A stretch of 10,050 nt of DNA, taken from positions 1 through 10,050 of the forward strand of contig JALGWK010000033.1 of assembly GCA_025774205.1 (NCBI GenBank). Reading direction: 5' to 3'. The number at the start of each line of letters is the position of its first letter. The stretch's first letter is position 1. The stretch comes from a bacterium. GTDB lineage: Bacteria; Blakebacterota; Blakebacteria; Blakebacterales; Blakebacteraceae. The translations under genes and the position numbers were made by a program. This document shows, piece after piece, positions 1,772 to 10,050 of this stretch. The notes below the pieces were generated by a model. It ran no database searches and had not been told where the DNA came from. It saw only the letters and a program-made list of their open reading frames with translations.

Positions 1772-2290
1772 TCAGGGAGCGCTGAACTGCAGGCTGGTTG
1801 TGACACGCGGCATGTTGACTTCGAGATTGAGCCGCCCGATCCGGACCCGGCCCTGCAGGACGATGTCGAGAGCCCCGGCTTCCTCATCCCCCCAGTTCCA
1901 GGGCCGTCCCTCACTGTCTCTCAGCGGCAGGTCGAAGCCGATCACGACGTAGTACCCGTGGACGAGATCATCGATCGGATTATTGAAGGTCCGCTGGGTG
2001 CTGAGATGGATGTGTCGGCCCGGATCGCGGGCGAGGAAGACGGAGATGTTCACCGACACGCTCCACGGCACGTGGAGCGCCCATTCATCAATGAATTCAC
2101 TGGTGTTCGTGATCGTGACCGCAAAATCCGGGCTGACGGCGGAGACATCGGGGCCGTAGAGGTGGGGTTCGATGATGATCTCTGCCGCCAGGGGAGTGTC
2201 GGGCGCCTCGTAGGCCGGCAGACTCTCTTCGCAGCCGGTCAGGATCAGGGGCATGGCCAGGGGCAGGAGCAGGAGGCGAAGCCGGGGCAT
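1772..2290 (-). CDS. Small outer-envelope lipoprotein, function unknown
   Basis: A 172-residue protein with a type II signal peptide: a charged start (MPRLR), a Leu-rich core and the lipobox LTGC with the acylated cysteine at C20. The mature part is not a family I recognise. It reads as alternating hydrophobic strands (for example DFAVTITNTS, WSVSVNISVFLA, YYVVIGFDLP, LDIVLQGRVRIG), so an all-beta, Ig-like fold is plausible. Its ATG (2290-2288) overlaps the receptor stop by one base (TGATG), with GGAGG at 2305-2301 ten bases upstream, so translation is probably coupled to the receptor. A surface or periplasmic accessory of that receptor is the natural inference. It is far too short to be a SusD-type binding lipoprotein. 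Residues after the cysteine (EES) give no sorting clue that I can interpret for this lineage. Confidence 0.85.
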   Translation of the reverse strand: MPRLRLLLLPLAMPLILTGCEESLPAYEAPDTPLAAEIIIEPHLYGPDVSAVSPDFAVTITNTSEFIDEWALHVPWSVSVNISVFLARDPGRHIHLSTQRTFNNPIDDLVHGYYVVIGFDLPLRDSEGRPWNWGDEEAGALDIVLQGRVRIGRLNLEVNMPRVTTSLQFSAP

Positions 2291-4914
2291 CAGAAGTGCA
2301 CCTCCAGGCCGATCCGGGTTCGTCGGCCGATTCGCCAGGCGCCCGGATCACCCAGTTCTCCCCCTGCGCGGCCGTCACTGGCGATCCAGACCAGGTTCCG
2401 GCGGTCGGTCACATTCCTGATGTCGGCAAAGAGCGTCAGCTTGATCTCGCGACTGCCCCTCGAGAGGGATATATCCTTCCTGATGCGGGCGTCGAGCAGG
2501 AAGTGTTCCTTCATCCGCGAGTTGTTCGGTACCACCTCCGTCCCTTCCGGGAGCACGCCGGTGGAAGAAGGAGCATAAGTATACGGTCGGGCTGAATTGA
2601 AGCGGGCGATCACGTTGTAACCGATCCCGGCCAGGTTGCCCATCAGCCTGGCCATCAGGGTGTGTCGCTGGTCCCATGAGAGGAAGTGCATCCGTCGGGG
2701 TGGTTCAAAGCCCCACTGCAGGTAGTTGAGGCCTGAGAGCCCCGTCTCGGCCTGGCCGCGGGCGGTCATGAACGTATAGGCCAGTTTCAGTCCCACCCCG
2801 TCCACGATCCGCCGTTCATAGGCCAGTTCAACCCCTGAAGAGCGGGCCAGCGGCAGGTTGACATACTGGGTGAATCCGTCTTCGAGAGCACGTGAATCAG
2901 CAGACAGATATGTTTTAGTATCAACAAGATTGAATGATTCTTTAAAGAAATACGTTACCGAGCCGGCGCTGTCGTCCGTCAGCTCCCGGCGGAAGGCGAA
3001 TTCATATGATTTGGTCCGTTCGTGTTCCAGATCGGGATTACCGACCAGGACTCGCAGGCCACGGGTGAGGTCGAGATCGAGACCGGAATAGAGCTGGTCG
3101 AAGAGCGGCACCTGGAAGAACTCGCCGTAGTTGAAGAGGAACCAGGTCCTCTCCGGCAGCGGGAAGGCCAGGCCGATTCGGGGGCTGACCTGCGCTTTCC
3201 GGCTGGCCGGGACCCACGACGTGATCTCCTGTTCGAACTCATCGGCGGTGGTGGGAACCCACTCCACGACAGGTCTGGAGGCCCGGGGATCGAGCCAGTC
3301 ATACCGTACTCCGGCGTTCAGGATCAGGCCGTCCCCGCTCTCCCAGGTGTCCTGGAAGAAAAGGCCGCCGGTTCGCGGCTGGTAGGAATAGGCATGTGAG
3401 TAATCGAGCGGAGCAAGATCGGGCAGGGGGAGCCCGTAGAAGGTGGTCTGCGGTTCCACTTTCAGCAGATCGGAGCTCAGGTCGTAGAAGGAGGTTTCGA
3501 ATCCCGCCCGCAGGCGGTGACGGCCGGCCTGGGCAGTGATCGAACCGCGCCCGGTGGTGATGTTCTGCTCTCCCCGGAACCACCAGAGCCGCTCGCCGCC
3601 GTCGGGTCGGACGTACTGCAGGAAGGTGTCATACGTCCAGAGGGTGCCGTTCTCGACCTCTTCCCGGGAGCCCCGGTGCATCCCCCGGTTGATGATGAAG
3701 TGGGAGAACTGGAGGTCGTAGAAGATCGAGGGTGAGATCATGTGGTTCAGGGTCAGGGCCAGTCGACCGCTGTCGCGCCAGCTGACGGGAAGGCCGTCCA
3801 GGTTGAAGCGCCAGCGCCATTCGTATTCCTGTTCCTCCTCGTGGCTGAGAACCACCTGGGCAGAGAGACGCAGCTTCCCGGTCAGGTAGACATCGGCGCG
3901 ACCGAATACGTTCCAGGCGCCGTGGTAGGGCGTCGTAAGGGAGAAATGCTGAAGATCCTGCCACCAGCGGGTATTGTCGGTCACATGGTCGGCGGCGATC
4001 ATCCAGAAGGCGCGGTCACGGACGAACGGTCCGCTGATCATCCCCTCCAGCTGGCCACGGCCGGAATGCTCGGTGCCGCCGAACGACTCACCGAGGTCGT
4101 CGCGATCGTACCGGATCATCGACTGCAGGCGGTTCGATCCCCGGCGGGTGATGATGTGCACTACCCCGGAGAGGGCGTTCCCGTAGGTGGCGTCGAAACC
4201 GCCCGTATGGATGTTCAGTTCGGTAATGGCCGATTTCGGCAGACCGATAGCGGAGATCCCGGCGGTCGGATCCTGAATCGGGACTCCGTCGAGGAGATAG
4301 ATGGTCTCATCGACGCGGCCGCCCCTGATATGTCCCCCCGACACAACCCCCGGCTGGAGCTCGACCATGTCCTGGATGGTGTCGACCGGCAGGCGATTGA
4401 TCTCGACCGAGGCGACCCGGTACATGGTGCCGGTCACATCCCGCTGCACCAGCGGCCGCTCGGCCGTCACGGTGACGGGCGGCATCTCGATGGTTGTGGC
4501 CTCCATCCGGACCTCGATGGTGGTCCGCAGGGAGGGGAGGACGGCGACGCCGGTCATTCGTACCTCCCGGTAACCGACGTAGCGGAAGATCAGGACATGC
4601 TCCCCGGCCGGTACGTTCCGCAGCAGGAAGAATCCGTCGGCGTTGGTCATCGAGCCGTAGGGAGTGCCCTCCAGGATCACGTTCACGGCCGCCAGCGGTT
4701 CCTCTCCGACCCCGTCCAGGACCGTGCCCTCGATGATGCCCGTGGACGCCGACTGCGCCGAAACCGTCACAGGGTTGAATAAGACTGAAGTGGCGATGAC
4801 CAGCGTGAGCGGCAGGAGGAAAGTCGGGTGTCGACGTGAACCCCGATCCGACTCGCGGGTATAATCCTGTACAGAAGGAGTAGCACTATCTATCTTAGCG
4901 AGCCGTTTGCCCAT
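2290..4914 (-). CDS. TonB-dependent outer-membrane receptor with N-terminal carboxypeptidase-regulatory-like domain
   Basis: 874 residues. A signal peptide occupies about residues 25-54 (basic GSRRH, hydrophobic LLPLTLVIATSVLF, cleavage near VSA-QS), after an unusually long polar leader. A carboxypeptidase-regulatory-like beta-sandwich follows (about 59-138, with the typical GTVLDG and FRYVGYRE). Next are a TonB-box-like stretch (PPVTVTAERP, 145-154) and the plug domain (about 160-260, with HIRGGRVDE, LLDGVPI and ALSGVVHIITRRG). The rest is a 22-strand-type barrel ending in an aromatic residue (LEVHF), as outer-membrane proteins do. It would import a scarce ligand, energised by TonB-ExbBD; the substrate is not readable. 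The only usable start in this frame is ATG 4914, with GGAG six bases upstream. That start shares CATG with the divergent bamA. A stretch near 2885-2960 is noticeably AT-rich against a GC-rich gene. The downstream lipoprotein is translationally linked. Confidence 0.95.
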   Translation of the reverse strand: MGKRLAKIDSATPSVQDYTRESDRGSRRHPTFLLPLTLVIATSVLFNPVTVSAQSASTGIIEGTVLDGVGEEPLAAVNVILEGTPYGSMTNADGFFLLRNVPAGEHVLIFRYVGYREVRMTGVAVLPSLRTTIEVRMEATTIEMPPVTVTAERPLVQRDVTGTMYRVASVEINRLPVDTIQDMVELQPGVVSGGHIRGGRVDETIYLLDGVPIQDPTAGISAIGLPKSAITELNIHTGGFDATYGNALSGVVHIITRRGSNRLQSMIRYDRDDLGESFGGTEHSGRGQLEGMISGPFVRDRAFWMIAADHVTDNTRWWQDLQHFSLTTPYHGAWNVFGRADVYLTGKLRLSAQVVLSHEEEQEYEWRWRFNLDGLPVSWRDSGRLALTLNHMISPSIFYDLQFSHFIINRGMHRGSREEVENGTLWTYDTFLQYVRPDGGERLWWFRGEQNITTGRGSITAQAGRHRLRAGFETSFYDLSSDLLKVEPQTTFYGLPLPDLAPLDYSHAYSYQPRTGGLFFQDTWESGDGLILNAGVRYDWLDPRASRPVVEWVPTTADEFEQEITSWVPASRKAQVSPRIGLAFPLPERTWFLFNYGEFFQVPLFDQLYSGLDLDLTRGLRVLVGNPDLEHERTKSYEFAFRRELTDDSAGSVTYFFKESFNLVDTKTYLSADSRALEDGFTQYVNLPLARSSGVELAYERRIVDGVGLKLAYTFMTARGQAETGLSGLNYLQWGFEPPRRMHFLSWDQRHTLMARLMGNLAGIGYNVIARFNSARPYTYAPSSTGVLPEGTEVVPNNSRMKEHFLLDARIRKDISLSRGSREIKLTLFADIRNVTDRRNLVWIASDGRAGGELGDPGAWRIGRRTRIGLEVHF
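4836..4865 (+). promoter_or_regulatory. Candidate promoter of the bamA operon
   Basis: A perfect TATAAT lies at 4860-4865, with a partial -35 match GTGAAC at 4836-4841 (18-base spacer). Transcription would begin near 4872, about 40 bases before the bamA ATG. The element lies inside the 5' coding part of the divergent receptor gene. The -10 is convincing; the -35 is weak. Confidence 0.45.
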
Positions 4915-7303
4915 GAATAACTCCGTACGGAATAGACCAGTACCTGCGCCCCGCGGCCTCCTGCTGTCGTTGACGATGGCTGTGGCTGTAGCCTCTACCC
5001 TTATCGCGCCGGTTTCCTTCGGTCAGGCTGACCCGCAACCTCCGATCACCATATCGGAAATCCGGGTCGAAGGGAATGTCCGAGCCGATGCCAACCTGAT
5101 CATCGTCGCCTGCGGACTCGTGGAGCAGCGCCCCTACGTCGTCACTGAATTCCATGAAGCGACCTCCCGGGCCGTCAGGCAGCTCTGGACCATCGGCATG
5201 TTCACCGATATCCAGCTGACCGGGCTTCAGATCTCCGACACCGAGGTCGTCATTATTATCACCGTCGCCGAGCGGCCACGGCTGAACACCATCTCGTTCC
5301 GCGGCAATGACAAAATGAAGCGGAAGGAACTCCTCGACGCCGGACTGATCGTGGACGGCATGTCGCTGGGTCCGAGCAACATCGAACAGGCGATGGGCCG
5401 GATTCGTGACCAGTACCGGGAAGAGGGGTACCTGCAGGCGACGGTGGAGGTCGAGTCCGCCCTGGTGGAGTCCGATTCGACGGCGATAAACGTGGTAGTC
5501 GATATCGACGAGGGCTCGAAGGTCGGCATCGACGACATTATCATCCTCGGTAATGAGGTCCTGAGCGACCGCCAGGTGCGGGCCGCCATGGCGACCGGAA
5601 CCGGCTTCCTCTTCTTCTCCAAAGGCAAGTTCGACCGTCGGCAGATCGAGCGGGACCGGGAACTGATCTCCGGCCGCTACGCTGAAGCGGGGCATCTCGA
5701 CGCTACCGTCATTTCGGACAGTCTCAGCATCGACGAGAACGGGCGCTCGATGACCCTCTTCCTCATCGTCGACGAGGGACCGCTCTTCACCCTCTTCAGC
5801 CTCGATTTCTCCGGGATCGAGCTTTTCGAGATGACCGAGATCGAGGAACTGATCACCGCGGAGGTCGGCGCTCCCTACAACCAGGCCGTCCTCGACGCGT
5901 CGATCAACGCCATCCGCGACAAGTACACCGAGGAGGGCTACGTCTACGCCGACATCGATCCCGTACCGAGCTGGCAGGGAGAGGGCGGCACCAACGTCGC
6001 CATCTCGGTAAATGTCTTAGAGGGAGAGCCGGCCAACATAGCGCATGTCTACATCACCGGAAACAACCGGACCAAGGAACACGTCATCCGGCGGGAACTG
6101 CTGATGAAGCCGGGCGAACGGTTCGCGCGCAGCCTGTTCGAACGCTCGATTCGCGAGGTGATGGCGCTCAACTATTTCAGCAACGTAACCCTCGATCCAC
6201 CGCCTTCGCCGACCGTCGACGGCGATCTCAACGTCACCATCCACGTCGAAGAGCGCCCCACGGGTCAGGCCATCATGGGAGCCGGTTTCAGCGAACGGGA
6301 CGGCCTGATCGGCAATATCGGGCTGCAGCTGCCGAACCTCTTCGGGGCGGGTCAGCAGCTCGACTTCACCTGGGATTTCGGCCGGATCCGCCGGACAATC
6401 ATGATCGGCTTCACCGAACCGTGGCTCATGAACACCCCGACCCTGGTCGGATTCAATGTCTACCGGAGCGAACTCTTCTGGAATGTCTTCTACAAGCAGC
6501 GCCGGGAGGGTCTGACCCTGAGGCTGGGGCGCCGGTTGCGCTGGCCCGATGACTACTTCCGCACCAGCATCGGCTACCGGCTCGAGGATACCGAGTTCTA
6601 CGATTTCCTCTCGAGCTATAACCCGAGCCCGACCTACGACCTGCGGCAGTGGGACTGGCCGATCCGGAACTCGTCCATCTCCTGGACGGTCACCCGTGAC
6701 TCCCGCGACCGGCCCGAATTCCCCACCGGCGGCTCGATGAACAGTTTCCGCTTCGAGCTCGCCGGCGGACCGCTCGGCGGGGACGAGCAGTACACCAAGT
6801 GGGACCTTACCCAGGCTTTCTATTACCGGACCTGGTCGGAGGTCGTCATGGCCCTGAAGGTCAGGGGCGGGCTGGTCGAGGGCTATGACAGCCGGAAGCG
6901 TGATGGGTTCGTCCCCTTCAACGTGAAGTACCTGCCGGGCGGCACCTCCTTCGACGGGCAGATCCGCGGCTACGAGAACCGCCGGGTCGGACCGGTCGAT
7001 CGTGATGGTCTGGAGATCGGCGGCCAGTCGATGCTTATCTTCACCCTCGAATGCACCTTCCCGCTGGCACAGGAACAGGCCCTCTACGGTCTTGTCTTCG
7101 CCGACGCCGGAAATTCCTGGCTCGATCTCGGCGACACCGATCCCTTCGACCTCCGTCGGTCAGTGGGATTCGGCCTCCGTATGTTCACTCCCATGGTGGG
7201 ACTCATCGGATTTGACTTCGCCTACGGCTTCGACCACTTTGAGAACGGGCGGCGCAAGGGCAGGTGGGTTCCCCATTTCCAGTTTGGAGCACAGTTTTAC
7301 TAG
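4913..7303 (+). CDS. bamA: Outer-membrane protein assembly factor BamA (Omp85 family)
   Basis: Core insertase of the BAM complex, which folds barrel proteins into the outer membrane. It is 796 residues from ATG 4913, the usual family size. A signal peptide (RGLLLSLTMAVAVASTLIAP, cleavage near FGQA-DPQ) is followed by five POTRA repeats at about residues 45-122, 123-202, 203-290, 291-373 and 374-451. Each carries a recurring pattern such as EIRVEGN, ISFRGNDK, IIILGNEV or VYITGNNRT. The 16-strand barrel starts near 452 and contains the lid-loop motif IRGYE at 684-688 (the family's VRGF/Y motif) and LPNLFGAGQ near its start. The C-terminus FQFGAQFY forms the terminal strand and ends in Tyr. An in-frame TTG at 4907 is an alternative start; no strong ribosome-binding site fits either (AGAAGGAG at 4873-4880 is too far upstream). 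It heads a plus-strand cluster with ompH, lpxD and lpxC. Confidence 0.97.
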   Translation: MNNSVRNRPVPAPRGLLLSLTMAVAVASTLIAPVSFGQADPQPPITISEIRVEGNVRADANLIIVACGLVEQRPYVVTEFHEATSRAVRQLWTIGMFTDIQLTGLQISDTEVVIIITVAERPRLNTISFRGNDKMKRKELLDAGLIVDGMSLGPSNIEQAMGRIRDQYREEGYLQATVEVESALVESDSTAINVVVDIDEGSKVGIDDIIILGNEVLSDRQVRAAMATGTGFLFFSKGKFDRRQIERDRELISGRYAEAGHLDATVISDSLSIDENGRSMTLFLIVDEGPLFTLFSLDFSGIELFEMTEIEELITAEVGAPYNQAVLDASINAIRDKYTEEGYVYADIDPVPSWQGEGGTNVAISVNVLEGEPANIAHVYITGNNRTKEHVIRRELLMKPGERFARSLFERSIREVMALNYFSNVTLDPPPSPTVDGDLNVTIHVEERPTGQAIMGAGFSERDGLIGNIGLQLPNLFGAGQQLDFTWDFGRIRRTIMIGFTEPWLMNTPTLVGFNVYRSELFWNVFYKQRREGLTLRLGRRLRWPDDYFRTSIGYRLEDTEFYDFLSSYNPSPTYDLRQWDWPIRNSSISWTVTRDSRDRPEFPTGGSMNSFRFELAGGPLGGDEQYTKWDLTQAFYYRTWSEVVMALKVRGGLVEGYDSRKRDGFVPFNVKYLPGGTSFDGQIRGYENRRVGPVDRDGLEIGGQSMLIFTLECTFPLAQEQALYGLVFADAGNSWLDLGDTDPFDLRRSVGFGLRMFTPMVGLIGFDFAYGFDHFENGRRKGRWVPHFQFGAQFY
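4921..4924 (-). promoter_or_regulatory. Shine-Dalgarno of the TonB-dependent receptor
   Basis: GGAG on the minus strand, six bases before ATG 4914. It lies within the first codons of the divergent bamA and supports the long-leader start of the receptor. Confidence 0.55.
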
Positions 7304-7471
7304 CGTTCTGAGCCGGAAGTCCGTTGCATCACCGAGGGCTACGCGGCGTTGCACCGGCCAGGCGCGTCGACGAGGTATAGCGGTGGCTATGGCGAGGAGA
7401 GGCAACACCGCCGGGGCTAATGCCGCGGAGAACGAATGACAACGGATTTGTGGTTCAGGACACCGACGGAC

Positions 7472-7530: not shown

Positions 7531-8097
7531 ATGCGTAAGTCCATGACGGCCGGTATCTTCGGCGGCTTCGTTTTCGCCCTTATCGCCGGCGCCGTGATGG
7601 TGCCCGTGCAGGAGACGATGAAACTCGGTTTCATCGATTCGCAGGCGGTTATCGGAGCCTATCCGCCAACACAGGATGCACAGGCGACATTCGCCACCGA
7701 AAACACCGTCTGGGAGCGCCAGGCCGCGGTCCTGGAGGCCGAGTTCAACCGGCTCAACCAGGACCTGGAACGCCAGAGCCTGGCGATGACTCCGGAGCGT
7801 CGGGCGCAGCTCGGGGCCGAGGTGCAGCAGAAGTACGGTGAGTATCAGGCCTACATCGACGAAATCTGGGGTCAGACCGGTCAGGCCTACGAGCGGAACC
7901 AGGAGCTGATGGCGCCGATCATCGAGAAGGTGAACACCCTCATCGAGCAGGTCGGCGAGGATGAAGGGTACGACTACATCTTCGACGCCGCCTCAGGCGG
8001 ACTTGTCTACGCGGCCCCTGCCTTCGACCTGACCCCCCATATCATCGATCTGATGGGGACAGGGACCGACGAGCCCGACCTGCCGCAGGCACCCTAG
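7531..8097 (+). CDS. ompH: Periplasmic chaperone Skp/OmpH family
   Basis: A 188-residue secreted chaperone expected to form a trimer that holds unfolded outer-membrane proteins in the periplasm and delivers them to BamA. A signal peptide covers about residues 1-28 (MRKSM, then a hydrophobic GGFVFALIAGAVMVP). The family's first strand, KLGFIDSQAVIGAYP, follows at 31-45. Residues 55-140 are charged and helical with long Glu/Gln/Arg-rich stretches (for example AAVLEAEFNRLNQDLERQ), matching the coiled-coil tentacles. The segment YDYIFDAASGGLVYAAP (147-163) is the conserved closing strand pair. The C-terminal tail is Asp/Pro-rich. Family length is typically 150-190. It lies 227 bp after bamA and two bases before lpxD, the arrangement common to bamA-skp-lpx clusters. 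A hairpin lies in its leader. Confidence 0.93.
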   Translation: MRKSMTAGIFGGFVFALIAGAVMVPVQETMKLGFIDSQAVIGAYPPTQDAQATFATENTVWERQAAVLEAEFNRLNQDLERQSLAMTPERRAQLGAEVQQKYGEYQAYIDEIWGQTGQAYERNQELMAPIIEKVNTLIEQVGEDEGYDYIFDAASGGLVYAAPAFDLTPHIIDLMGTGTDEPDLPQAP

Positions 8098-8099
8098 AC

Positions 8100-9122
8100 G
8101 TGCTGGCCGGCGATCTGGCCCGCGAACTGGAGGGCCGTCTGGACGGGGAGGATCGCGAGATCACTGCGGTCGCTCCCCTTGAAACAGCCGGGATCGGGGA
8201 CCTTTCCTACCTGAGCGCGGAGAAGTACTCCGGATTGATGGAGACGACCGGGGCGGGGACTGTACTGGTCGATGAAGGGTTCGAAGGAGAGACAGCCGCC
8301 TCCCTGATCCGGGTCAGTGATCCGTACGCATCCCTCAGACAATCGCTGATCCTGCTCTATCCCCCAGAGGCTGTCGAACCGGGCATCCAGCCGACCGCTC
8401 TCATCCATCCTTCGGTCGCCCTCGGCGAGAATCTCTCGATCGGACCATACACCATCATCGACGCGGAGGTGACGATCGGTGACGGCACCGTCATCGGGGC
8501 AAGTGTCACTATCGGACGGGAGGTCCGGATAGGCAGCAACTGTGTGATCCATCCCGGGGTAGTCATCTACCGGCAGTCGTTGCTGGGCGACCGGGTGGAA
8601 CTGCTCGCCAACGCCGTCATCGGCAGTGACGGTTTCGGTCACAGCCGGGAAGAGGGCATCTACCTGAAGATCCCCCAGGTGGGACGGGTCGTCCTGGAGG
8701 ACGACGTCCTCGTGGGGGCCTGCAGTACCATCGATCGGGCCACCTTCGGTGAGACCCGGGTCGAGGCCGGGACGAAGATCGACAATCTTGTCATGGTCGC
8801 CCATAATAGCGTGATCGGACCGAACACGGCGATCGCGGCCCAGACCGGAATGGCCGGTTCCACTATCGTCGGAGGCGAAGTGCAGATTGGGGGACAGGTG
8901 GGACTGGCCGGTCATCTGAAGGTCGGAGACCGGGCCGTCCTGGCGGCCAAGTCAGGGGTCATCAGCGACATTCCGGAGGATGCGTACTACTTCGGTTATC
9001 CCGCCCGTCCACAGAAGGAGTGGATGACCATGCTCGCCGGTCTCAGACGTCTGCCCGACCTCAGGAGACAGGTCCGGGAACTTGAGCGAAGACTGGCCGA
9101 GCTCGAAGACCAGGTGGAGTAA
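8100..9122 (+). CDS. lpxD: UDP-3-O-(3-hydroxyacyl)glucosamine N-acyltransferase LpxD
   Basis: Transfers an R-3-hydroxyacyl chain from acyl carrier protein to the 2-amino group of UDP-3-O-acyl-glucosamine, the third step of lipid A synthesis, in the cytoplasm. It is 340 residues, as in the family. The N-terminal uridine-binding domain (about 1-98) has the pattern ITAVAPLETAGIGDLSYL. A left-handed beta-helix of hexapeptide repeats (about 99-290) contains IGSDGFGHSREEG and STIDRATFG. It also holds KIDNLVMVAHNSVIG, whose H235 matches the catalytic histidine (E. coli H239). The C-terminal helix (LRRQVRELERRLAELEDQ) is the trimer coiled coil. GTG 8100 is the only early start in frame; it lies two bases after the ompH stop, so coupling to ompH translation is likely. 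lpxC, whose product acts one step earlier, follows after 37 bases. Confidence 0.97.
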   Translation: MLAGDLARELEGRLDGEDREITAVAPLETAGIGDLSYLSAEKYSGLMETTGAGTVLVDEGFEGETAASLIRVSDPYASLRQSLILLYPPEAVEPGIQPTALIHPSVALGENLSIGPYTIIDAEVTIGDGTVIGASVTIGREVRIGSNCVIHPGVVIYRQSLLGDRVELLANAVIGSDGFGHSREEGIYLKIPQVGRVVLEDDVLVGACSTIDRATFGETRVEAGTKIDNLVMVAHNSVIGPNTAIAAQTGMAGSTIVGGEVQIGGQVGLAGHLKVGDRAVLAAKSGVISDIPEDAYYFGYPARPQKEWMTMLAGLRRLPDLRRQVRELERRLAELEDQVE

Positions 9123-9159: not shown

Positions 9160-9852
9160 ATGGCACAACAGACGTTGCAGGCCACCATCGAGAGTTCGGT
9201 CACCCTGGCGGGGATGGGGCTCCACACCGGGAACGACGTCTCGGTCACCTTCCGGCCTGCGCCGCCCGATACCGGTATCATTTTCGTCCGGTCCGACCTG
9301 GAGGGGCAACCCGAGATAAAGGCCGATATCGAGAACGTACTCGACATTGACCGCGGCACCACCATCGGGTCGAACGGGGCCAGGGTGACGACCGTGGAAC
9401 ATCTCCTGGCCGCGTTGAGCGGCCTCGGGATCGACAATGTCTACGTCGAACTCGACAGCCCGGAGCCGCCCGTGGGTGACGGTTCGGCGATGCCCTTCGT
9501 GGAGGTCCTGCTGAAGGTGGGGAAGAAGGAGCAGGAAGCTCCGCGCAGGTATCTCGAGGTGGATGAAACGATCACCTGGACCGATCCGGAGCGCGGGGTT
9601 GACCTCGTCATCCTGCCCTCCGATGAATTCCGGATCACCTTCATGGTCGATTACCAGAATCCGGCCCTCGGGACCCAGTACACCAGCATGTACGGCCTCG
9701 AAGAGGAGTTCGTAGACGAGTTCGCCGCCTCCCGCACCTTCTGCTTCCTGAGCGAGGTGGAGGAGATGTCGGAGCGGGGATTGATCAAGGGCGGGAACAT
9801 CGACAACGCCGTGGTGATCATCGATCACGATGTATCCGATGAGGCGAAGTGA
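9160..9852 (+). CDS. lpxC: UDP-3-O-acyl-N-acetylglucosamine deacetylase LpxC, 5' part of an interrupted frame
   Basis: LpxC is the zinc amidase that commits UDP-3-O-acyl-GlcNAc to lipid A. This frame (230 residues) starts normally with TLQATIESSVTLAGMGLHTG and carries domain 1 with TVEHLLAAL (general base E80, zinc ligand H81), then PVGDGSAMPFV. Domain 2 reaches ASRTFCFLSEVEEM and GGNIDNAVV. It stops at TGA 9850-9852, where a family member would continue. The missing C-terminal residues, including two zinc ligands and the catalytic histidine, are encoded immediately after in another frame. One extra G at about 9849 would join the two frames and give the expected spacing. Alone, this product should be inactive. 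A one-base deletion (real or an assembly error) is the simplest reading; a genuinely split gene is an alternative. Confidence 0.93.
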   Translation: MAQQTLQATIESSVTLAGMGLHTGNDVSVTFRPAPPDTGIIFVRSDLEGQPEIKADIENVLDIDRGTTIGSNGARVTTVEHLLAALSGLGIDNVYVELDSPEPPVGDGSAMPFVEVLLKVGKKEQEAPRRYLEVDETITWTDPERGVDLVILPSDEFRITFMVDYQNPALGTQYTSMYGLEEEFVDEFAASRTFCFLSEVEEMSERGLIKGGNIDNAVVIIDHDVSDEAK

Positions 9853-10050
9853 TCGTTGGGGGAGGCTTCCGCTGGCCCAACGAACCGGTCCGGCACAAGA
9901 CCCTCGATCTGATCGGCGATTTCACGCTCCTTGGAATGCCCCTGAAGGCGCACGTGCTCGCCGCCCGCTCGGGACACGCGGCCAATGTCGAGATCGTCCG
10001 CAAGCTGCGCCAGTTCCAGGAGCGGAAAGAGATCGAGCTGAAGTACCAGG
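9849..10050 (+). CDS. lpxC: LpxC C-terminal part, displaced frame, open to the right edge
   Basis: This continues LpxC in the -1 frame without a stop to the window end. From GTG 9849 it gives 67 codons. FRWPNEPVRHKTLDLIGDF supplies the zinc ligands H16 and D20 (E. coli H238, D242), and ARSGHAANVEI supplies the catalytic H43 (E. coli H265). From its first Val, the stretch aligns without gaps to the E. coli segment that begins VLNEDGLRF. GTG 9849 overlaps the upstream stop as GTGA, and GAGG at 9841-9844 lies four bases before it, so reinitiation is physically possible. The tail (KLRQFQERKEIELKYQ) runs past the usual LpxC end near the SGHALNN motif. It resembles the linker of LpxC-FabZ fusions, so a downstream FabZ domain is possible but unseen. 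Most likely this is the continuation of one gene. Confidence 0.85.
   Translation, partial: MIVGGGFRWPNEPVRHKTLDLIGDFTLLGMPLKAHVLAARSGHAANVEIVRKLRQFQERKEIELKYQ

Follow-up and report, generated by a model that had tools for sequence, protein, structure and literature searches.

Bifunctional LpxC/FabZ proteins, described by the NCBIfam model PRK13188 (NF009667), carry the EH, HKxLD and SGHAxN motifs of LpxC in one continuous frame, with a FabZ domain fused in frame downstream. In the relatives compared here, members of this subfamily also contain extra residues that precede the RHKxLD motif. A second described phenomenon that bears on the present locus is the creation of many apparent pseudogenes by assembly errors; as described by Cooley and Wright (2024, PMC11017572), such pseudogenes break conserved genes that are intact in relatives and occur several to a draft, as is also the case here. 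That study concerned public genome assemblies and their reassembly from reads, whereas the locus described below belongs to a 527-contig draft known from the assembly alone.

The window, that is, the whole stretch of DNA that was analysed (10,050 bp), makes up the entire contig C79 of the source genome G000 (GCA_025774205.1, JALGWK010000033.1). G000 is a draft metagenome assembly of 527 contigs and 3.09 Mb, with a completeness of 85.85% and a contamination of 4.84%. The corresponding loci of a same-genus genome, G001 (locus L042, on contig JALGVQ010000007.1), and of a same-family genome, G002 (locus L043), served for comparison. The features of the window that concern lpxC and its neighbourhood are as follows.

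4907 to 7303, plus strand: bamA, encoding an Omp85 protein with POTRA domains (Pfam PF01103, PF07244)
7531 to 8097, plus strand: ompH/skp-like gene (PF03938, E 8.5e-30)
8100 to 9122, plus strand: lpxD, intact, the upstream neighbour of lpxC (TIGR01853, E 5.3e-105)
9160 to 9852, plus strand: 5' part of lpxC-fabZ, covering LpxC to model position 216 and including E80/H81 (PF03331 1-216, E 3.9e-71)
9842 to 9843, no strand: junction at which 58 bp are absent (blastn against L042, with an ungapped block on each side)
9843 to 10050, plus strand: 3' part of LpxC with RHKTLD and SGHAAN, in another frame and cut off by the contig end (PF03331 217-267, E 2.9e-18)
9937 to 10050, plus strand: overlap with contig C54 of the same genome (114 bp, 0 mismatches)

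Two further regions of the window were observed alongside these genes. The bamA/ompH-like intergenic region (7304-7450) is a dispersed repeat whose sequence folds back on itself over a long stretch (z = -3.2). G000 holds 14 other matches to it, complete or partial, and G001 holds many, there with a unit of about 160 bp; an Rfam search with it gave no match, and it is possibly a REP- or MITE-like element of this genus. On the minus strand, 2290-4914 holds a long frame that, judged by eye, resembles a TonB-dependent receptor; it has a near-zero DNA match in G001, and its flanks match separate G001 contigs.

The LpxC frame runs from the ATG at 9160 to the TGA at 9850-9852, and LpxC homology within it stops at 9842, before this stop codon. 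The 3' frame (codons at 9843, 9846 and 9849) is stop-free to the contig end at 10050, 208 bp past the junction; the Pfam LpxC model is split between the two frames at position 216/217. The original prediction, which described an LpxC frame ending at this TGA with the remainder in another frame, is thus borne out in its coordinates, as it is in assigning E80/H81 to the 5' part and both RHKTLD and SGHAAN to the 3' part; the subfamily motifs are all present, but across two frames. The GTG (9849-9851) overlapping the TGA and the GAGG at 9841-9844 to which it drew attention are likewise present in the sequence. It had also proposed looking for another intact lpxC, and a search of G000 matched LpxC at the window only, with no second copy, intact or not.

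For both halves the best NCBIfam model is PRK13188. The curated cut-off of NF009667 (465 bits) is not reached by the cut pieces, which score 301 and 68 separately, the FabZ domain lying on another contig. When the two LpxC parts were located in other genomes with the same query pieces, their spacing was mostly about 0-30 nt at stand-alone loci and mostly 57-105 nt at fused ones, compared with 2 nt in the window. The two parts had been thought to fit the spacing of E. coli LpxC, and appeared to do so because stand-alone LpxC lacks residues that are found here in the LpxC-FabZ subfamily.

Alignment with the same-genus relative locates the loss precisely. Window positions 9160-9842 align gap-free by blastn to L042 2511-3193 (83% nucleotide identity) and positions 9843-10050 align gap-free to L042 3252-3459 (85%), which leaves the 58 bp of L042 3194-3251 without a counterpart between 9842 and 9843. 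A stretch corresponding to these 58 bp is also kept in the same-family genome. The suggestion that one added G would make the two parts fit therefore does not hold, and a one-base frameshift is ruled out. Microhomology-driven deletion was considered as well and set aside, no clear repeat being found to flank the breakpoints.

The break is confined to this assembly among the loci compared. We compared 118 other loci, five of which gave the first LpxC half only; in all of the 113 having both halves, the two lie in a single stop-free frame, although some of these loci are one genome taken from two collections, so that they represent somewhat fewer independent genomes. A continuous lpxC in relatives had been named beforehand as an observation that would speak against a biological split, and this is what was found. 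The open LpxC-FabZ frames measure 518 aa in G001 (474 aa from ATG) and 478 aa in G002, and these and the other loci have the continuous frame that is interrupted here at 9842/9843. Family searching gave the same picture, with every other genome that has two partial LpxC matches carrying both in a single open frame, and neither this search nor the 118 loci revealed a split LpxC conserved in independent genomes. The original prediction had proposed looking for the same GTGA junction in independent genomes; the exact junction sequence of the window was sought in other genomes and found no match. A literature search by phrase returned no paper on a split LpxC.

These comparisons bear directly on the possibility, raised by the original prediction, that stop/reinitiation at the GTGA yields two LpxC chains, which then come together to form a single active site. 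The overlap of GTG and TGA, the GAGG four bases upstream and the conservation of both halves speak for such an arrangement. However, the split is absent from all relatives compared, 58 bp of conserved coding sequence are gone at the junction, the local RNA fold is no better than that of shuffled sequences (z = -0.04), and the GTG simply encodes valine within the gene in relatives (GAG GTG ATC in G001); breaks of this kind, moreover, also occur in unrelated genes of the G000 draft (see below). We consider two-chain synthesis extremely improbable, and give equally little credence to its fuller form, in which the deletion would be real and fixed and a short N-terminal LpxC would reassemble with a reinitiated C-terminal LpxC-FabZ into one zinc site. 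Programmed ribosomal frameshifting or bypassing, which would restore the product from the closely adjacent frames, is just as hard to credit, as a slippery heptamer is not visible (already observed in the original prediction), the junction has no stable RNA structure that could be stimulatory, and the frame offset stems from a 58-bp loss seen in no relative.

The continuation of the gene is found on a second contig. The window's final 114 bp are identical to the start of C54 (reverse complement), on which the 3' LpxC frame stays open through FabZ to a natural stop; the FabZ domain is thus fused in frame downstream, as in the described family, on the overlapping contig. After the overlap, C54 carries the FabZ domain, lpxA (placed through DNA similarity to the G001 cluster, not by family search) and the first part of lpxB. 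The contig pair C97/C513 likewise overlaps by exactly 114 bp, and because the two overlaps are identical in size, 114 bp is most likely the k-mer overlap of the assembler. Loss of LPS, one of the explanations put forward at the outset, finds no support: lpxD is intact, and fabZ, lpxA and lpxB are present on the overlapping contig.

Both parts of the gene carry the mark of selection. Compared with G001, the 3' part differs at 32 of 207 nucleotides and at 2 of 69 residues (dN 0.013, dS 1.19), and the 5' part has a dN of 0.047 and a dS of 0.99, giving dN/dS values of about 0.01 and 0.05 respectively. Purifying selection on the gene has thus been strong, keeping it functional at least until very recently, and the break is therefore either very recent or not real.

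Similar breaks occur elsewhere in the same assembly. Comparison of translated G001 genes with 40 contigs of G000 under strict criteria covered 106 genes (112 kb) and revealed 9 frame breaks; in addition, the NDK gene of G000 lacks about 79 bp. At the DNA level, deletions of about 20-80 bp affect lpxC-fabZ, a sensor kinase, a crotonase, a family 9 glycosyltransferase (heptosyltransferase-like) and NDK, while FabH, a Kdo transferase and an ABC ATPase carry exact tandem duplications (7, 10 and 10 bp). Break sites seen at the DNA level lie at C142 ~5698, ~13450 and ~16000, C280 ~669, C102 ~5921, C103 ~2805 and C124 ~8970, with further candidate sites at C124 ~17012 and C55 ~17560. Pieces joined end to end, with a gap left unfilled or a short overlap left unmerged, would produce both kinds of break. 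The pattern is not peculiar to the G000 assembly: in the reverse comparison G001, which is also a draft, has 5 frame breaks in 85 genes (L274 ~13060; L273 ~1700 and ~1290; L275 ~1900; contig C218 ~380). Short frame-breaking exact tandem duplications, counted as an independent test of bad joins, number 6 in 366 kb of G000 against 4 in 595 kb of G001, a weak excess.

A clean-ended 58-bp deletion can be a genuine mutation, and a real, very recent deletion that affects this strain, or some cells of its population, and inactivates lpxC-fabZ in its carriers has to be weighed against an error of assembly. The breakpoints are clean, and the contig fork 94 bp past the junction could mean that two variants coexist. 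Yet the only FabA/FabZ domain found in G000 is the fused one on C54, and therefore a real break would strike LpxC together with the sole FabZ found in the bin, both activities being normally essential; the remaining LPS gene set is retained, and the breaks in FabH, NDK and the Kdo transferase would need to be real too. Taken together, this makes a real deletion unlikely, though better placed than the translational explanations considered above.

The broken lpxC-fabZ is, with a probability of about 0.87, an assembly artefact in an ordinary fused gene. This reading is favoured because the break is absent in relatives, the contig breaks off with an exact overlap and similar breaks are found in the same assembly; it agrees with the sequencing or assembly error listed among the original options, in the form of a 58-bp loss at a bad join and not of a one-base error. 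On this account an ordinary bifunctional lpxC-fabZ would lie in a bamA-skp-lpxD-lpxC/fabZ-lpxA-lpxB cluster, and a bad join made 208 bp before the contig end would have cost the draft 58 bp of the gene. We infer that assembly is the cause, one possible route being that two pieces were abutted and the intervening gap was left unfilled.

Annotation of broken genes in the G000 draft accordingly warrants caution. Where a single essential gene appears broken near a contig end of a fragmented draft, both the neighbouring contigs and the frequency of breaks across that assembly should be checked before a new mechanism is invoked. In the living organism, a single continuous frame most likely encodes LpxC fused to FabZ.
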